A DNA stretch of 64,000 nt. Origin: Flavobacteriaceae bacterium PS02336. Its GTDB lineage: Bacteria > Bacteroidota > Bacteroidia > Flavobacteriales > Flavobacteriaceae. Both the position numbers and the translations under genes were made by a program. The notes beneath the pieces were generated by a model. That model did not search any database, was not told where the DNA came from, and was given only the letters and a program-made list of their open reading frames with translations. Positions 58,346-64,000 of the stretch are shown one piece after another; the stretch's first letter is position 1, and every line of letters begins with the position of its first letter. The stretch is from positions 310,001 to 374,000 of the forward strand of contig JASCOF010000005.1 of assembly GCA_029960065.1 (NCBI GenBank), given 5' to 3'.

Positions 58346-58447
58346 AAAAAATGTCATTTTAATTTTTGAATAAGGTCTTGAAAATCAATTTCGTTTTTGA
58401 GATTCGGATAAAGTTTTAAAATTAAATACAAATGATGTCTTAAAATA

Positions 58448-58479
58448 TTTGGAGTGAATGAAAAATAGTAGTAATATTG
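58448..58479 (+). promoter_or_regulatory. tRNA promoter TTTG-N20-TAATATTG
   Basis: TTTG at 58448-58451, 20 bp, and TAATATTG at 58472-58479, 13 bp before the tRNA start. The -7 box differs from TAnnTTTG at one position. Confidence 0.6.
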
Positions 58480-58492
58480 CATCCTCTAAACC

Positions 58493-58566
58493 GGTCCTAT
58501 AGCTCAGCTGGTTAGAGCACCTGACTCATAATCAGGTGGTCCCTGGTTCGAGCCCAGGTGGGACCA
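58493..58566 (+). tRNA. tRNA with CAT anticodon (Met, or lysidine-modified Ile2)
   Basis: A full cloverleaf can be drawn: acceptor stem 5' GGTCCTA with TGGGACC, D-arm GCTC/GAGC, anticodon stem CCTGA/TCAGG around loop CTCATAA, and T-arm CCTGG-TTCGAGC-CCAGG. The discriminator is A and no CCA is encoded. CAT can be elongator methionine or Ile2 (after lysidine modification); the sequence alone does not decide it. It is a likely integration site for the mobile element that follows. Confidence 0.93.
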
Positions 58567-58577
58567 CTAATAAAATC

Positions 58578-58610
58578 AAGCCTTTGCAGAAATGTAAAGG
58601 CTTTTTTATT
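58578..58610 (+). terminator. terminator after the tRNA
   Basis: AAGCCTTT (58578-58585) and AAAGGCTT (58596-58603) pair around a 10-nt loop and are followed by a T-run. Confidence 0.8.
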
Positions 58611-58694
58611 TTTTCTGACGAACATTTGACGAGCAAAATGTTTTTTATAATCAATTAGTTTTGTTTACTTTTAGGGGAATTAACTGATTGTAAT

Positions 58695-59516
58695 ATGACC
58701 ATTTATATCTACATCTTGTCATTTATCCTAATTTTTGCCAAAATTATTGTTCCTGTATATCTTCTTTTTAGATTATTTTTCATAGTTAAACCTTTATTTG
58801 TAAATCTATATTTTGAAGAGAAATTTAATTATTATGCTGGAATAAACAAAAGCAGGTTATTGATTTTATTACTGCTTTGTTTTTTATCATTTTTCATAGG
58901 AACTTTTCTCGGAAGAGAAGTTTTGAGTATTTCAGATACTTACAAAATCATATTGAATCTCTTTTTACTAGTTCTTACTCAATTTGTATTGTTCTATATG
59001 TTTGAGGTAAAAACTCCAAGAAGTATTTTTAAAATAGTACGAGATTGGTTTGAAAATCCCAAGGAAATATTTAAGCAAAGAGAAGTGATTTTTGAAGAAA
59101 GTAATGTAATGGAATCAATAAATCAGAACGGTGTGAATTTTAAAGACGCAGTAAATCTAACCTATGGAGATATTATTAAACAGATTCATCGAAGAGAGTT
59201 TGATCTAGTAATAGAGAAGTGTGCTAATATTTTTCGGGATAATTCTTCAATTGAAAATCTTTATAAGTTCTGCAATGGAATGGAAATAAAAGAAGGATCA
59301 ATTTTAATAAAAATAGATAATAAAAGAAACTCAAAACAGAACATAATAGAGATATTGACGTCACTTTTCAATATTCAAAAAAATTGGAATTCTCAGAGCA
59401 AAGATAAAACAAACACCAAAATTGTTGATTTTTTGAATAAGTATATTACAATAAATGATGGAGATAAAACTTTACACATTAACGATTTTACACGATTATT
59501 TGAAAAATTGCCTTGA
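58695..59516 (+). CDS. unknown membrane protein at the left of the mobile element
   Basis: A 273-residue protein with three hydrophobic segments in the first 105 residues (IYILSFILIFAKIIVPVYLL, LLILLLLCFLSFFIGTFLG, IILNLFLLVLTQFVLFYMF) and a soluble charged C-terminal half (FKQREVIFEESNVMESINQ, TKIVDFLNKYITINDGDKT). No family is recognised. Its position between the tRNA and the replication genes marks it as cargo or an element-encoded gene. Its base composition is very AT-rich, as in the rest of the element. Confidence 0.6.
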   Translation: MTIYIYILSFILIFAKIIVPVYLLFRLFFIVKPLFVNLYFEEKFNYYAGINKSRLLILLLLCFLSFFIGTFLGREVLSISDTYKIILNLFLLVLTQFVLFYMFEVKTPRSIFKIVRDWFENPKEIFKQREVIFEESNVMESINQNGVNFKDAVNLTYGDIIKQIHRREFDLVIEKCANIFRDNSSIENLYKFCNGMEIKEGSILIKIDNKRNSKQNIIEILTSLFNIQKNWNSQSKDKTNTKIVDFLNKYITINDGDKTLHINDFTRLFEKLP

Positions 59517-59694
59517 TCGCTATGTAAAATTTGATTACTCAAATATGTTTTTTAAAGATAAAATAAGCTAAAATGATTTGTTCTGTTTGGGAATTTATTA
59601 TTATAATTTATTTTAAATATGTAAATTGTTTTTACACGATTTTTTACAAATCCAAACCTCCGTAAACTTGTTTCGTAATTTAAAAATTAGAAAC

Positions 59695-60030
59695 ATGGAT
59701 GCAAGTGATTTTATTTCCAAAATTGATCGATTGGAATTGATTGTACTGGAACTAGCAAAGAAACAAGATGCGTTTATTAAAAAGGCATTGATGAAACTAT
59801 CTTTAAATAATAAAGATGTTTATTCCTCTGAAGAAGCTGCAGAGTTTTTATCTATAGAAGTTAAATACATTTATCAGCTTACCCACCAACGAAAGATTAG
59901 ATATTCCAAGAAAAAAGGTCAAAAGAAAATCTATTTTAGAAAAGCGGATCTTCTTGATTATTTAAACGGAGAGGTCATTAGTACTACTGAAGATCTTGAG
60001 AACATAAATGCTGCTTTGTGGAAAAAATAA
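59695..60030 (+). CDS. helix-turn-helix (excisionase/MerR-like) protein
   Basis: A 111-residue DNA-binding protein. A coiled N-terminal region (IDRLELIVLELAKKQDAFIK) precedes a winged helix-turn-helix: YSSEEAAEFLSIEVKYIYQL, RKIRYSKKKGQKKIYFRKAD. This is the excisionase-type HTH_17 fold used in many Bacteroidota mobile elements to control excision or the adjacent replication genes. The ATG at 59695 is chosen because MDASDFISKIDRLEL begins the usual family N-terminus; an in-frame start at 59626 would add 23 residues. Confidence 0.85.
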   Translation: MDASDFISKIDRLELIVLELAKKQDAFIKKALMKLSLNNKDVYSSEEAAEFLSIEVKYIYQLTHQRKIRYSKKKGQKKIYFRKADLLDYLNGEVISTTEDLENINAALWKK

Positions 60031-60123
60031 GTCGTTCAACTTCTGCAAAATGAACGCATAAAAAACCTTTGTTTTTTAATCAAATTCTTATGACAAGATT
60101 GTAAGGATTATAATTTGAATCTT

Positions 60124-61356
60124 ATGGACTTAGATATTCCTTATATCAGAGTAGGCACTTCCTATTTTAAAATAATAGATAAACCTTTAATATCTGGTGA
60201 TAAAGTAAAAGTAATGGTTCGGTGGAATCGTGAAACAATCATTTCAGATCACGGAAAATCGTTTTTAAACGATATATCCAAACTAGATGGATTTTGCTGT
60301 ATTCCAAATCATTTTGGTTACGAGCAAATTGTAGATGATTTTTATAATACTTATCATGAACTGCCTAACCAACCAATAACTAAGAATTTTTCAATTGATG
60401 AACTCGAAAAATTGATTCCAAATTCATTGCAATTTATTCAACATATTTTTGGAGAACAAACGCAATTAGGCTTAGACTATATAAAACTTTTATATGAAAA
60501 ACCTACGCAAACATTGCCAATTCTTTGTTTGGTAAGCAAAGAGCGATCGACAGGAAAAAGCTCTTTTATAAAGTGGTTGAAATCAATTTTTGGAATGAAT
60601 ATGACCTACATAAAAGGCGATTCATTTGGCTCGCAGTTTAATTCTGATTGGGCGAGTATGTTACTTGTAGCGATTGATGAAGTGTTTTTTGATAAAAAAG
60701 AAATTACAGAACGTTTAAAATATCTTTCTACGACTGACAAAGATAAAATAGAAGCAAAAGGTAAGGATAGACAAGAAATTGAATTCTTTGCAAAATTTAT
60801 TCTTTGTTCTAATAATGAAGATAATTTCATTCAAATAGACGAAGAAGAAATCCGTTTTTGGATTCGTAAAATTCGTACTATAAATACAGAAGATGTATTC
60901 TTTCTTAAAAAACTGAACAAAGAAATTCCGTATTTCTTAAAGTACCTGCAAATAAGAAATTATTTTTCCGAGCAAAAAACCAGAATGTGGTTTAAACCCG
61001 AACAGATTATGACTGCTTCTCTGTTAAAGCTTGTAAATCGAAATAAAGATGAAATACTTATTCTTGAATTGATACATGAATGTTTTGAAAAAATGGAAGA
61101 CGATGAGTTGAAATTAGCTCCTAATGATATTTTCATTCTACTGAGGAAGCAAAACAACCGAATAAACATTTCTGCTAATGAAATAAGAAATATTCTCAAA
61201 CGATGGGGTTTTATACCCGAAGACAATACGAAGTCTTATTGTGGAATTGAATTATTGTCGCATGGTGAATATGTAAAAGTAGATCGAAGAGGGCGTTTTT
61301 ATACCATTAAAAAGATTTTGTTTTATAAAATTTTTGATGCTTTGATGCAAAATTAG
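60124..61356 (+). CDS. primase-helicase (DUF5906-type)
   Basis: A 410-residue protein with an SF3-like ATPase domain in the middle: the phosphate loop SKERSTGKSSFIKWLKSIFG (first glycine of the classical Walker A replaced), Walker B LLVAIDEVFFDK, and the sensor-like FAKFILCSNNEDNF. The C-terminus has a winged-helix-like part (EIRNILKRWGFIPED). It resembles the replication helicases of Bacteroidota mobile elements. The ATG at 60124 is preferred; a TTG lies 9 bp upstream in frame. Its 3' end contains the first copies of the TGATGC repeat array. Confidence 0.85.
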   Translation: MDLDIPYIRVGTSYFKIIDKPLISGDKVKVMVRWNRETIISDHGKSFLNDISKLDGFCCIPNHFGYEQIVDDFYNTYHELPNQPITKNFSIDELEKLIPNSLQFIQHIFGEQTQLGLDYIKLLYEKPTQTLPILCLVSKERSTGKSSFIKWLKSIFGMNMTYIKGDSFGSQFNSDWASMLLVAIDEVFFDKKEITERLKYLSTTDKDKIEAKGKDRQEIEFFAKFILCSNNEDNFIQIDEEEIRFWIRKIRTINTEDVFFLKKLNKEIPYFLKYLQIRNYFSEQKTRMWFKPEQIMTASLLKLVNRNKDEILILELIHECFEKMEDDELKLAPNDIFILLRKQNNRINISANEIRNILKRWGFIPEDNTKSYCGIELLSHGEYVKVDRRGRFYTIKKILFYKIFDALMQN

Positions 61357-61485
61357 TATAAAGTCTTGTAATTGAGCTAAACAGATCTGCATCAAAGCTT
61401 GCATCAAACTACAAAACAATCTTTTTTGATGCAAAACTGATGCAGGACAAAAATAAATTGATGCAGTGATGCAACTATTGATGCA
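61335..61485. repeat. iteron-like array of TGATGCA heptamers
   Basis: TGATGCA occurs on the forward strand at 61343, 61427, 61438, 61459, 61467 and 61479, and as TGCATCA at 61388 and 61400, with a one-base variant at 61335. Eight perfect copies in 143 bp is far above chance. Spacings of 11, 21, 8 and 12 bp between forward starts and 12 bp between the two reverse ones suggest helical phasing in part. It starts inside the helicase gene's last codons and fills the gap to the primase. Confidence 0.85.
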
Positions 61486-61625
61486 GTGTAATATTGATAT
61501 AATCAATTAGTTAGGTGGTGTTTACATCAAAACATCAAAAAAAGCAAAAGTTATAATTCTTTTTTTCATTAGCAAATAAACAGACTTATGCAAAATCAAA
61601 TAAAGATTTATTAAAAAAAACAATT

Positions 61626-62558
61626 ATGGAAAAGTTCAATTGTAAAATTGCAAATCAAATTGATTTGGTCAATTATCTGGAAACATTAGGGCATGAGCCA
61701 TTAAAAATAAAAAATCAGGATTATTGGTATCTATCACCACTTAGAAATGAAAAAACACCCTCTTTTAAAGTGAATCAGAAATTAAATTTCTGGTATGATC
61801 ATGGAACAGGTAAAGGAGGGAATGTAGTTGATTTTGGGATTGAATATTTTAGATGCACTGTTTCGGAATTTTTACAACTTTTAAATAGCAAAAGTATTTC
61901 CTCTGGTATAAGTTTATCACTTAAGAATGAGAATCGACAGTCTTCAAATCTAAGAATTGCAAATGAAAAGAAAGATAATCCACTTGATAAAATTGTCATT
62001 GTTGATGTACGTATATTGGAAAATAAGGTGTTGATGGCTTATTTAGACAAACGAAGCATTTCACAAGAGATCGCAAGGCAACATTGTAAAGAGGTTGATT
62101 TTTGTTTAAATAATCGAAAGTATACTGCTATTGGATTTCAAAATATTTCAGGAGGATATGAATTACGTAGTGAATATTTTAAAGGCAGCAGTTCACCAAA
62201 AGATATCACTTTCATAGATAACCAAGCAAAATCAGTTGTTGTTTTTGAAGGCTTTTTTGACTACCTCTCTTATAAAATGATGAATCAAAAATCGGTTAGC
62301 TTGCAAACAAATTCCCTGATACTTAATTCTCTATCTTTTTTTACCAAGTCGCTACAGTTAATGGAAAAACACGAGAGAGTTGATCTATATTTAGATAGAG
62401 ATACGGGAGGTATAAAATTTACTCGTGAAGCCCTCCAAAGAGATTCTACAAAATATATCGACCAAAGTTTTTTATATGAGCAAAAGAAAGATTTAAATGA
62501 ATGGCTAAGCCGGGGACAGGAAGTTAAGCGAGGTCATAGTTTTAGGCGATCTATATAA
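61626..62558 (+). CDS. toprim-domain DNA primase of the mobile element
   Basis: A 310-residue DnaG-like primase. The N-terminal CHC2-type part keeps the frame SPLRNEKTPSFKVNQKLNF and DHGTGKGGNVVDFGIEYF, but its zinc-binding Cys/His residues are replaced. The toprim domain has VVVFEGFFDYLSYKMMNQK and, further on, the acidic pair in VDLYLDRDTGG. Such shortened primases in mobile elements of Bacteroidota prime replication or conjugative second-strand synthesis. It follows the helicase by 269 bp, most of them the iteron-like region. Confidence 0.88.
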   Translation: MEKFNCKIANQIDLVNYLETLGHEPLKIKNQDYWYLSPLRNEKTPSFKVNQKLNFWYDHGTGKGGNVVDFGIEYFRCTVSEFLQLLNSKSISSGISLSLKNENRQSSNLRIANEKKDNPLDKIVIVDVRILENKVLMAYLDKRSISQEIARQHCKEVDFCLNNRKYTAIGFQNISGGYELRSEYFKGSSSPKDITFIDNQAKSVVVFEGFFDYLSYKMMNQKSVSLQTNSLILNSLSFFTKSLQLMEKHERVDLYLDRDTGGIKFTREALQRDSTKYIDQSFLYEQKKDLNEWLSRGQEVKRGHSFRRSI

Positions 62559-62570
62559 CGTCCGAGTGGT

Positions 62571-62658
62571 AGCCAGCTATGTTTTGGTAAAACCAAAACG
62601 CTGGCTCCTCTCATGCTATGGCATTCGTTGAGAGAATTTTTTTCATGCTGCCGCATTC
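62571..62658. repeat. oriT-like palindrome and direct repeats upstream of mobC
   Basis: AGCCAGC (62571-62577) and GTTTTGGT (62581-62588) pair with ACCAAAAC (62592-62599) and GCTGGCT (62600-62606), forming a hairpin with a 3-nt bulge and a 3-nt loop. Downstream, CATGCTATGGCATTC (62612-62626) and CATGCTGCCGCATTC (62644-62658) are near-identical direct repeats. The placement between the primase and the mobC-relaxase genes fits an origin of transfer. The nick site is not identified. Confidence 0.65.
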
Positions 62659-62680
62659 AAAAAATAAATGATGAAAGATT

Positions 62681-63061
62681 ATGGAACAACAGAATGAAGC
62701 TAAAAAAAATACAGGAGGTAGACCCAAAAAGGCGATAAAGAGAGACCAATTAATGGCAATTAAATGTACACTCTACGAGCGTAATATAATTGAATCCAAA
62801 GCTAAAAAAGTAAATCTTACCGTTTCTGAATATCTTCGTGAAATTGGACTCAAAGCAAAGATTGATTATAGAAATAAAGCCCTTCCGAAAGAAATTCTAA
62901 GCTTTACCGGAGTGCTTAATCACATGGCAGCCAACCTTAATCAGATAGCCAAAAAGAGAAATAGCAATGACGAATTGAGTCCACTTGAACGAGCAGAATT
63001 AAAAGTACAGTCAGGTCAGGTTAAAGATCTTGCCGTCAAAATTAAAAACTTTATGTCATGA
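62681..63061 (+). CDS. MobC-type relaxosome accessory protein
   Basis: A 126-residue basic protein with a ribbon-helix-helix-type N-terminal segment (GGRPKKAIKRDQLMAIKCTL, RNIIESKAKKVNLTVSEYLR) and a conserved helical region (LSFTGVLNHMAANLNQIAKK), typical of plasmid mobilization MobC proteins that help the relaxase bind oriT. It overlaps the relaxase start by 4 bp (ATGA), so the two are translationally coupled. The oriT-like palindrome lies just upstream. Confidence 0.9.
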   Translation: MEQQNEAKKNTGGRPKKAIKRDQLMAIKCTLYERNIIESKAKKVNLTVSEYLREIGLKAKIDYRNKALPKEILSFTGVLNHMAANLNQIAKKRNSNDELSPLERAELKVQSGQVKDLAVKIKNFMS

Positions 63062-64000
63062 TAGGTCGTGTAAGCATAGGCAGCTCGTTTTACCATTGTA
63101 TTAGCTACTGTTTGGAAGATAAAAGAGAATTGTCTGAAGAGAAAAAACTAGCACTTGCAATGCAAGACCGTTTGCAGCATAAAGACCGAGCAGAAGTATT
63201 AGAATATAATAATTGCTTCGGTAACAAGTATGAGCTTACACAGCAGTTTAAAGATGTAAGGAAATTAAGCAGGCGTGTTGAAAAACCAATGTTGCATCTT
63301 ACCCTACGTTTAGCTCCAAAAGAAATATTGACCAAAGAACAATTGAGAGAAGTTGGCAGAGAATGCGCCAAGGAGTTTGGTATTGCCGACCACCAATACA
63401 TCTGCGTACTGCATAAGGATACCAAAGAGCAGCATATTCATATTGCAGCCAATCGAGTAGGTTTTAATGGTAAGGTTGCCAATGATAGCAATAGCTATAA
63501 ACGCATGGCTGAACTTTGTCGTCGTCTTGAAAAGAAATATGATCTTCAAGAAGTATTAAGTCCAAGAGCATTCCTGTCTCCTAAAGATAGGTTATTGCCT
63601 CGGCATGACAGCAGGAAAGAAAAGCTAAAAGTAAATATCCAACAGACATTAAAGTATGCCAACTCTTATTTAGAATTTGAAAGACAAATGAAGGTTTTGG
63701 GGTATAAAGTTCTTAAAGGCAGGGGAATTTCTTTTATAGATGATAAAAAAGTAAAAATAAAAGGAAGCGAAGTTGGTTTTTCATTGATGAAAATTGAAAA
63801 GATATTACATCAGAACCAACAGTATGCCAGGAAAAATGTTGGTGAAGAAAAAAAACATGACAGAAATAGTCAGTCAATATCTAATTCTTTCAATACTGGA
63901 AAGCAAAACGAAGAAAAGCAAAACTATAACTTAGGCAGGACAGGAGAGGGATTTGTTAAAGAGATTTTAGGGTTTACAGGTCAGCTAATGAATTCTGAAT
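63058..64000 (+). CDS. relaxase/mobilization nuclease (partial, cut by window edge)
   Basis: The first 314 residues of a MobA/MOBP-type relaxase, starting with ATG at 63058 (MIGRVSIGSSFYHCISYCLE), overlapping mobC by 4 bp; it runs off the right edge. The HUH-type metal motif is HIH in TKEQHIHIAANRVG (residues 126-128), and H80 (PMLHLTLR) is another conserved position. The catalytic tyrosine is probably near the N-terminus but cannot be assigned. It nicks oriT and leads strand transfer using conjugation machinery supplied by another element. The second half, after residue ~265, is charged and poorly conserved. Confidence 0.9.
   Translation, partial: MIGRVSIGSSFYHCISYCLEDKRELSEEKKLALAMQDRLQHKDRAEVLEYNNCFGNKYELTQQFKDVRKLSRRVEKPMLHLTLRLAPKEILTKEQLREVGRECAKEFGIADHQYICVLHKDTKEQHIHIAANRVGFNGKVANDSNSYKRMAELCRRLEKKYDLQEVLSPRAFLSPKDRLLPRHDSRKEKLKVNIQQTLKYANSYLEFERQMKVLGYKVLKGRGISFIDDKKVKIKGSEVGFSLMKIEKILHQNQQYARKNVGEEKKHDRNSQSISNSFNTGKQNEEKQNYNLGRTGEGFVKEILGFTGQLMNSE

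Follow-up and report, generated by a model that had tools for sequence, protein, structure and literature searches.

The alpha protein of the satellite phage P4 is an SF3 helicase whose C-terminal winged helix binds several short iterons, present in both orientations, at ori and crr; the primase, the helicase and the DNA-binding domain are joined in a single polypeptide, and the iterons form two blocks. The SCCmec helicase Cch2 and the SaPI Rep protein, according to parts of a study of these proteins (PMC7581432), recognise iterons directly downstream of their own genes by means of the C-terminal domain. For integrative mobilizable elements (IMEs), passages of a review hold that replication of the excised forms had never been studied as of 2017 and that their maintenance was an unexplored world (PMC5704250). 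A literature search, with most subscription papers beyond its scope, gave no description of a helicase and a downstream array as a module in elements of Bacteroidota. Replication of SGI1 has reportedly been described since that review.

The window considered here, which is the whole stretch of 64,000 nucleotides analysed from Flavobacteriaceae bacterium PS02336, contains an array of TGATGCA heptamers between the genes of an SF3-type helicase and a DnaG-type primase. Very probably, this array is the origin (ori) of an integrative mobilizable element, with the helicase as a self-loading initiator and the primase as the enzyme that primes. The assignment of the array as origin and of the helicase as initiator follows from an anatomy that is the same as that of SaPI Rep and Cch2, together with a co-evolution that points to the same domain of the helicase; physical binding, opening of the origin, priming and replication of the excised form are what we infer from this comparison.

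The end of the window falls inside an integrative element of about 16.6–16.7 kb at a tRNA-Met gene (Table 1). A second, identical copy of the 51-bp att sequence is found at G000:C33:385152 and a third, with five mismatches, at 412566, the latter indicating that two elements stand in tandem. Given the att repeats at the tRNA-Met gene, a tyrosine integrase and a relaxase, and given that no transfer-machinery genes were recognised among the element proteins scanned, the first element is, as read from its sequence, an IME. Its gene order runs from a protein without a profile match through an HTH_17/excisionase-family protein, which is likely the directionality factor, to the DUF5906 helicase, the array, the CHC2/Toprim primase, the NikA-like protein and the MobB-like relaxase, followed past the window end by exporter-type cargo and the tyrosine integrase. 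The part of the relaxase inside the window matches Bacteroid_MobB with an E value of 1.2e-24, under the cut-off of that model, and the protein is 339 aa at full length in L034. The segment between the primase and mobilisation genes is a candidate oriT by its position only. No packaging genes were recognised among the element proteins scanned, which comprise part of the ORFs. A Rep_3-type iteron plasmid replicon would have a Rep_3 initiator, with its double winged helix, beside its iterons, and no match to such an initiator was obtained in the proteins scanned from the element or from the circular record L197; at the sequence level the locus does not appear to be of this type, the array being flanked by the DUF5906 helicase and the CHC2/Toprim primase.

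Further features of the two elements can be described in passing. A 24-bp exact direct repeat lies near both ends of the first element (window 58615-58638 and L034:19021-19044), possibly as arm sites of the integrase. The cargo (L034:9357-17360) consists of an efflux protein of the outer membrane, a protein of 245 aa rich in glycine, an ABC transporter of the C39-peptidase type and a fourth protein, without Pfam match, that resembles a secretion accessory; taken together, it looks like a bacteriocin or peptide export system. The second element, at the same tRNA-Met gene and in tandem behind the first (G000:C33:385203-412616; L035, L200), has its own HTH protein, a helicase that is 48% identical, a TGATGACA array, a primase-like gene and a DUF5712 protein. 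In other words, the two tandem elements carry different words, TGATGCA and TGATGACA.

Table 1. Positions of the features of the element within the window.
Feature	Position	Strand	Basis or remark
tRNA-Met gene, integration site	58493..58567	+	ARAGORN, Rfam tRNA
att repeat, 51 bp (3′ part of the tRNA and two bases beyond)	58519-58569	+	identical direct repeat 16,633 bp downstream
Protein without Pfam or NCBIfam match	58695-59516		first gene in element order
HTH_17/excisionase-family gene	59695..60030	+	Pfam HTH_17 E 8.3e-12; TIGR01764 excise E 2e-7
SF3-type helicase, putative replication initiator, 410 aa	60124..61356	+	Pfam DUF5906 E 3.1e-20
Helicase C-terminal domain, predicted winged helix, candidate iteron reader	61009..61353 (residues 296-410)	+	AlphaFold of 291-410, pLDDT 87.3
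Predicted recognition helix of the C-terminal domain	61174-61203 (residues 351-360)	+	AlphaFold model
Degenerate first repeat TGATGCT	61335..61341	+	sequence; next repeat 8 bp on; within helicase gene end
Iteron TGATGCA	61343..61349	+	exact match; within helicase gene end
Iteron TGATGCA	61388..61394	-	exact match
Iteron TGATGCA	61400..61406	-	exact match
Iteron TGATGCA	61427..61433	+	exact match
Iteron TGATGCA	61438..61444	+	exact match
Iteron TGATGCA	61459..61465	+	exact match
Iteron TGATGCA	61467..61473	+	exact match; 8 bp past preceding iteron
Iteron TGATGCA	61479..61485	+	exact match
Degenerate reverse pair (ACATCAAAACATCAAA)	about 61521..61541	-	inverted repeat with 61331-61351, 90% complementary
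DnaG-type primase, CHC2 zinc ribbon and Toprim, 310 aa	61626..62558	+	Pfam Zn_ribbon_DnaG E 1.9e-10, Toprim_2 E 5.6e-11
Candidate oriT, strong hairpins before the mobilisation genes	62559..62680	+	single-strand DNA fold -25.9 kcal/mol, z -5.55
NikA/MobC-like mobilisation accessory protein	62681..63061	+	Pfam NikA-like E 2.7e-17
MobB-like relaxase, runs past the window end	63058..64000	+	Pfam Relaxase E 2.6e-35

The first-pass annotation of this DNA had reported eight perfect TGATGCA copies, six forward and two reverse, and a word count finds them at just those places, within 143 bp (61343-61485). It had also set the start of the array at the end of the helicase gene, where the first perfect copy does lie; the array nevertheless opens one repeat earlier, with the degenerate TGATGCT, and extends beyond the last perfect copy to the degenerate reverse pair, a site that in several relatives holds two good reverse iterons (+166/+174 or +169/+177; L055, L061, L073). 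With its degenerate copies the array is some 200 bp long, has repeats in both orientations and reaches back across the stop codon of the helicase. The window holds 19 copies of TGATGCA where 10.2 are expected, such that the 11 copies outside the array are close to background. An equal density elsewhere, which the annotation had named as an objection to its own reading, is not found: across the genome of 5,818,938 bases, three same-strand copies with gaps of up to 25 bases occur in the array only (three overlapping matches; the backwards pattern, as a control, gave 0 matches), and of the nine same-strand pairs with gaps of up to 30, five are those of the array. The element holds two further copies, 246 bp apart, at 67559 and 67805 in extended window coordinates. 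The AT content along the array region has local peaks and no clear melting segment, and an Rfam scan of 58400-64000 returned the tRNA as its sole match.

The gene upstream of the array had been annotated as a primase-helicase; profile searches instead make it a helicase in which no primase domain is recognised. Its AlphaFold model (pLDDT 86.7) aligns with the helicase region of NrS-1 with a Z of 24.3 (rmsd 6.8 over 346) and with the SaPI5 primase-helicase with a Z of 17.6 (rmsd 6.1 over 330), the profile matches 6k9c/6k9e with an E value of 9.8e-15, and K145, the Walker lysine, is invariant in the relatives aligned. Beyond this core, the model of the C-terminal domain has its elements in the order of a winged helix and, among 993 chains re-aligned with a second aligner, comes closest to regulators with winged helices (best Z 8.4, rmsd 3.2 over 88; STIV F93, Z 6.9). 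Foldseek with the C-terminal domain alone gave no significant match, the top rows being ribosomal chains, and the winged-helix assignment is therefore of moderate strength, since what speaks for it is mostly the order in which helices and strands are predicted. Neither P4 alpha nor PriRep1 is among the rows shown for this domain, though a match to either may lie outside those rows.

The association of such repeats with this helicase is a property of a wider family. A protein search found helicase relatives in 35 of the 249 genomes of the bacterial family sampled, and the helicase family is also present in Bacteroides-type contigs and circular records. The loci compared comprise 80 from named genomes, which are the best 80 of 562 confirmed, and 80 from viral contigs, the best 80 of 88; among the former, the nearest helicases are 94–97% identical over the aligned part and belong mostly to Flavobacterium species, by which the genome of the window is probably Flavobacterium as well. 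Repeats were sought in 133 non-redundant loci whose sequence covers the stretch, as the commonest 6-mer on either strand, compared with 100 dinucleotide shuffles, in the 300 bp around and after the helicase stop, with the 300 bp before the gene and a stretch within the gene as controls; in this test any repeated word counts. Close relatives (the window and L005-L117) were repeat-rich at p<=0.05 around and after the stop in 73 of 75 cases, the middle group (L118-L160 and L196-L199) in 28 of 29 and the distant viral group (L161-L195) in 12 of 25, compared with 5/75, 1/30 and 1/27 in the upstream control and 0/76, 1/30 and 0/27 within the gene. The failures are L020 and L027 among close relatives, L118 in the middle group and 13 of the 25 distant viral loci. 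When single 7-mers were counted instead, 18 of 29 loci passed at p<=0.05, with L024 and L030 doing so by way of other repeats. From the repeat test and its controls it follows that the array belongs, with exceptions, to the 3′ side of the DUF5906/SF3 helicase; a lack of the array in related elements, the other objection that had been foreseen, is thus not general. Several copies of TGTTACA, TGTCCCA or TGTCACA were seen behind the helicase gene in the distant viral contigs L164, L171, L176, L177, L182, L184 and L193, among which L177 and L184 fail the repeat test.

Among the close relatives the layout of the repeats is kept while the heptamer itself varies between TGATGCA, TGATGAG, TGATGAA, TGATGAC and TGTTGAG/A. 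Relative to the helicase stop codon, the layout begins with two forward repeats, 8 bp apart, that lie over it (near -22/-14 or -19/-11, with one copy of the pair too degenerate to count in some rows). Next come two or three reverse repeats between about +30 and +57, then forward ones in two groups, of one or two between about +70 and +85 and of two or three between about +92 and +127; the layout closes with one or two reverse repeats between about +155 and +179, directly before the primase gene. Bacteroides-type and viral rows (L197, L198, L129, L033) have other spacings and mostly fewer matches. TGATGCA is found chiefly in Flavobacterium and in Myroides; Chryseobacterium-type genera carry TGATGAG or TGTTGAG/A. 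Sinomicrobium and Galbibacter have TGATGAA, many others have TGATGAC, and TGTTACA or TGTCCCA is seen in some distant viral contigs.

This layout bears on the reading, which we regard as unlikely, that the array serves not as an origin but as an operator, from which the helicase or another element protein controls how the primase-mobilisation operon is transcribed. Multi-site operators are common, the array sits directly before the primase gene, and helicase binding as such would give the same co-evolution as is described below. Against this, the array reaches back past the helicase stop codon, spans about 200 bp and has its repeats in both directions. Moreover, the Bacteroidetes promoter pattern TTG-N17-23-TANNTTTG (-33/-7) occurs in just 1 of 136 such regions, which is weak evidence since the pattern is a strict one, and L031 keeps the array even though the next genes are SRAP and SecB-like ones rather than a primase gene (the same place as L201).

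The origin reading draws further on how the repeats change. When 24 arrays of TGATGAG were aligned with 16 of TGTTGAG/A (7 of 31 A loci, with fewer than five TGATGAG, were left out), 12 of the 225 columns were fixed by class, and 11 of these 12 fall on the third base of a repeat, one for each of the 11 repeats, with those of both strands included. Such switching of the third base in all 11 repeats is to be expected if one protein reads every repeat. By comparison, it is very unlikely that the repeats act through secondary structure, as an origin hairpin or a single-strand initiation site of the kind that, in passages of one report, was proposed for the stem-loop that follows the replication gene of pRN1 (PMC4234260). 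Copies of opposite orientation can indeed pair, and single-strand folds of six stretches from four elements have z values of -1.93 to -6.30; the copies that pair nevertheless differ between elements, forward-forward tandem pairs change as strictly as forward-reverse ones, which pairing alone would not demand, and the heptamer class tracks the winged-helix domain.

The last point comes from trees of the same 92 elements (77 of class A, TGATG, and 15 of class T, TGTTG), on which changes of class were counted. These elements are what remained of 194 helicase loci after those outside 380-430 residues (20, leaving 174), those unlabelled for mixed, few or other motifs (38, leaving 136), near-duplicates (26, leaving 110) and those without a primase over 250 residues (18) were removed. 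Along the helicase, the trees of residues 1-100, 101-200, 201-295 and 296-395 require 8, 7, 6 and 3 changes, while those of the three thirds of the primase require 10, 12 and 12 and that of the upstream gene 11 (88 rows); with labels shuffled on the C-terminal tree, the minimum was 11 changes in 200 trials. Finer classes behave likewise, with 19, 19, 18 and 14 changes for the helicase parts, 24, 27 and 28 for the primase and 31 for the upstream gene, the latter being taken as the nearest upstream ORF of 70-160 aa within 450 bp and checked by profile in part of the rows. The helicase tree stops at residue 395, and with the residues encoded by the array included the C-terminal part needs two changes instead of three. 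From these sequences, the heptamer class appears to follow the C-terminal domain of the helicase, to a lesser degree the rest of the helicase, and not the primase or the upstream gene, which makes the C-terminal domain the best candidate for the binder of the array.

The first-pass annotation had put forward the excisionase-like HTH protein as a possible binder, and this proposal fares poorly. The protein is of a DNA-binding type and its gene lies directly upstream of the helicase, such that a role at the array in excision or regulation can be envisaged; it is, however, extremely unlikely. Near-identical HTH genes stand beside different heptamers (L066 with TGATGAG, L108 with TGTTG), and the identity of the upstream gene across classes rises to 0.957, in keeping with the many class changes on its tree. 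In L031, which has the array, and in L201 the upstream protein is without a Pfam match, in L028 and L033 it is by eye unlike HTH_17, and some 2.8 kb separate the array from the nearer att site. The primase was also considered as a binder and rejected, given the 10–12 class changes on its tree and identities of up to 0.904 across classes.

At high N-terminal identity, pairs of helicases from Chryseobacterium-type loci (31 A and 16 T, with L069, L089, L099 and L103 set aside) show the same dependence. At an N-terminal identity of 0.85-0.90, C-terminal identity is 0.847 in pairs of the same class (98) versus 0.677 in pairs of different class (25); at 0.80-0.85 the values are 0.773 (127) versus 0.682 (47), and at 0.75-0.80 the contrast is small, at 0.710 (35) versus 0.668 (264). 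At 0.70-0.75 the contrast is reversed, with 0.504 (109) in the same class versus 0.533 (77) in different classes. Residues 404 and 405 correlate with class because they are encoded by the array itself. Other class-associated positions, by statistics that ignore kinship, are 369 (S/T versus mostly G), 388, 351 and 374; position 351, the first residue of the predicted recognition helix, is often A/L/V/I versus mostly R/K. Linkage adds to the tracking by the C-terminal part, since the array adjoins the helicase gene, whose residues 404-409 are encoded by the first repeats; linkage would also produce part of the fall from 8 through 7 and 6 to 3 changes between the two ends of the gene. The primase lies about as far from the array in the opposite direction, yet does not track the class.

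Plasmid iteron arrays often serve both as origins and in maintenance or incompatibility. It could thus be supposed that the array is a maintenance or incompatibility site, for partition or the control of copy number, to which either the helicase or a host factor binds, and that replication starts elsewhere. We hold this to be highly improbable: with a host factor as binder the tracking between class and helicase C-terminal domain would go unexplained, and the element proteins scanned include no recognised partition gene. Incompatibility was sought through the co-residence of classes and none was seen, since elements of the same class share one genome in four cases (L073/L092, L111/L114, L055/L060 and L050/L058).

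The overall picture is that of an origin, a reading offered in the first-pass annotation and now well supported by sequence comparison through the repeats behind the helicase gene in most relatives, their kept layout and their concerted change. In the mechanism that we propose, the C-terminal winged-helix domain of the helicase would bind the heptamers downstream of its own gene, whereupon the helicase would assemble on the array and open the excised circle there. The DnaG-type primase, encoded directly downstream, would then start new strands, and the excised circle would be copied and so not be lost while it awaits mobilisation by the relaxase.

Circular records of relatives are of interest in this respect. 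Two of them, one of 15,935 bp from Bacteroides finegoldii and one of 14,960 bp from Phocaeicola massiliensis, contain the helicase gene followed by repeats; the former has no other named replication initiator among its 16 annotated genes, most of which are hypothetical, and the latter none in ten further ORFs scanned of the 20 listed. A third circular record, L198, has 29,827 bp. Such records, whose plasmid gene table is incomplete, may be autonomously kept circles, or excised forms closed by the assembler. Separately, a 124-kb circular Bacteroides uniformis record (L199; pBUN1, NZ_AP019725.1, 102260-107495) holds a helicase relative with TGATGAA/G repeats behind it, then a toprim-domain gene and a MobV relaxase, near a MUN-1 beta-lactamase gene.

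A probable origin and its likely initiator can be named for a family that is found in 35 of the 249 sampled genomes, in Bacteroides-type contigs and in circular records. The switch of the repeats, concerted base for base and tied to one domain, would provide many natural pairs of initiator and origin for the study of a recognition code and of the co-evolution of origins. We lean, if only slightly, towards a broader view still: that self-loading SF3 helicases of a single family are common to mobilizable elements of Bacteroidota, to their circular-record relatives and to phage-like contigs, that an origin geometry of about 10–12 repeats is kept, with every repeat changing the same base whenever the winged-helix domain changes, as a natural and readable code of initiator-origin specificity, and that most such elements are able to replicate after excision.

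It remains to set the locus beside the systems already described. NBU1 has its primase gene beside the mobilisation genes. Passages on Prevotella mobilizable transposons describe a primase gene in the same position (PMC4755523), and the present element further resembles NBU1/NBU2, Tn4555 and related Bacteroidota mobilizable elements, as far as parts of the 2017 review describe them, in its tyrosine integrase and MobP relaxase (PMC5704250). NBU1 is termed a non-replicative unit in a passage of another paper (PMC6764341), and a helicase-iteron module is absent from the passages of these three sources that concern NBU1/NBU2 and Tn4555-type elements.

The likeness to the P4 replicon is partial. 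Unlike P4 alpha, the helicase here is a protein of 410 aa without a recognised primase domain, the primase is a separate one of 310 aa, and one block of repeats was found. SaPI5, for its part, is induced by phage and packaged. A SaPI as an element would have an AEP primase and genes for induction and packaging, whereas the primase here is of the CHC2/Toprim type; as regards the module of SaPI Rep and Cch2, both its SF3/D5-type helicase core and its short-repeat array directly downstream of the helicase gene are found, and the predicted winged helix, which covaries with the repeats, is a candidate for its repeat-recognising domain. The locus shares with SaPI Rep and its ori (SaPI5 primase-helicase, PriRep1; 7ola, 7om0, 7pds) the fold of an initiator helicase, at the Z of 17.6 with SaPI5, and, by comparison with what parts of PMC7581432 describe, the short iterons directly downstream; its candidate recognition domain would have the C-terminal place that this domain has in SaPI Rep. 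It differs from SaPI5, whose primase is there given as AEP (PMC7581432), in a DnaG-type primase on a separate gene and in its mobilisation genes.

Comparison with SCCmec, as presented in parts of the same source (PMC7581432), follows similar lines. In place of the CCPol-MP polymerase-primase and Ccr recombinases, there are a CHC2/Toprim DnaG-type primase, a tyrosine integrase and a relaxase, and in place of a 23-bp direct-repeat region this element and its close relatives have 8–12 repeats in both directions. In common with SCCmec, on the other hand, the element is an integrated mobile island that codes for its own priming activity, and its putative initiator resembles the pattern-2 Cch2, a SaPI5-like helicase of Primase_Cterm/D5 type whose C-terminal domain binds intergenic AAGTG iterons right after its gene (PMC7581432).
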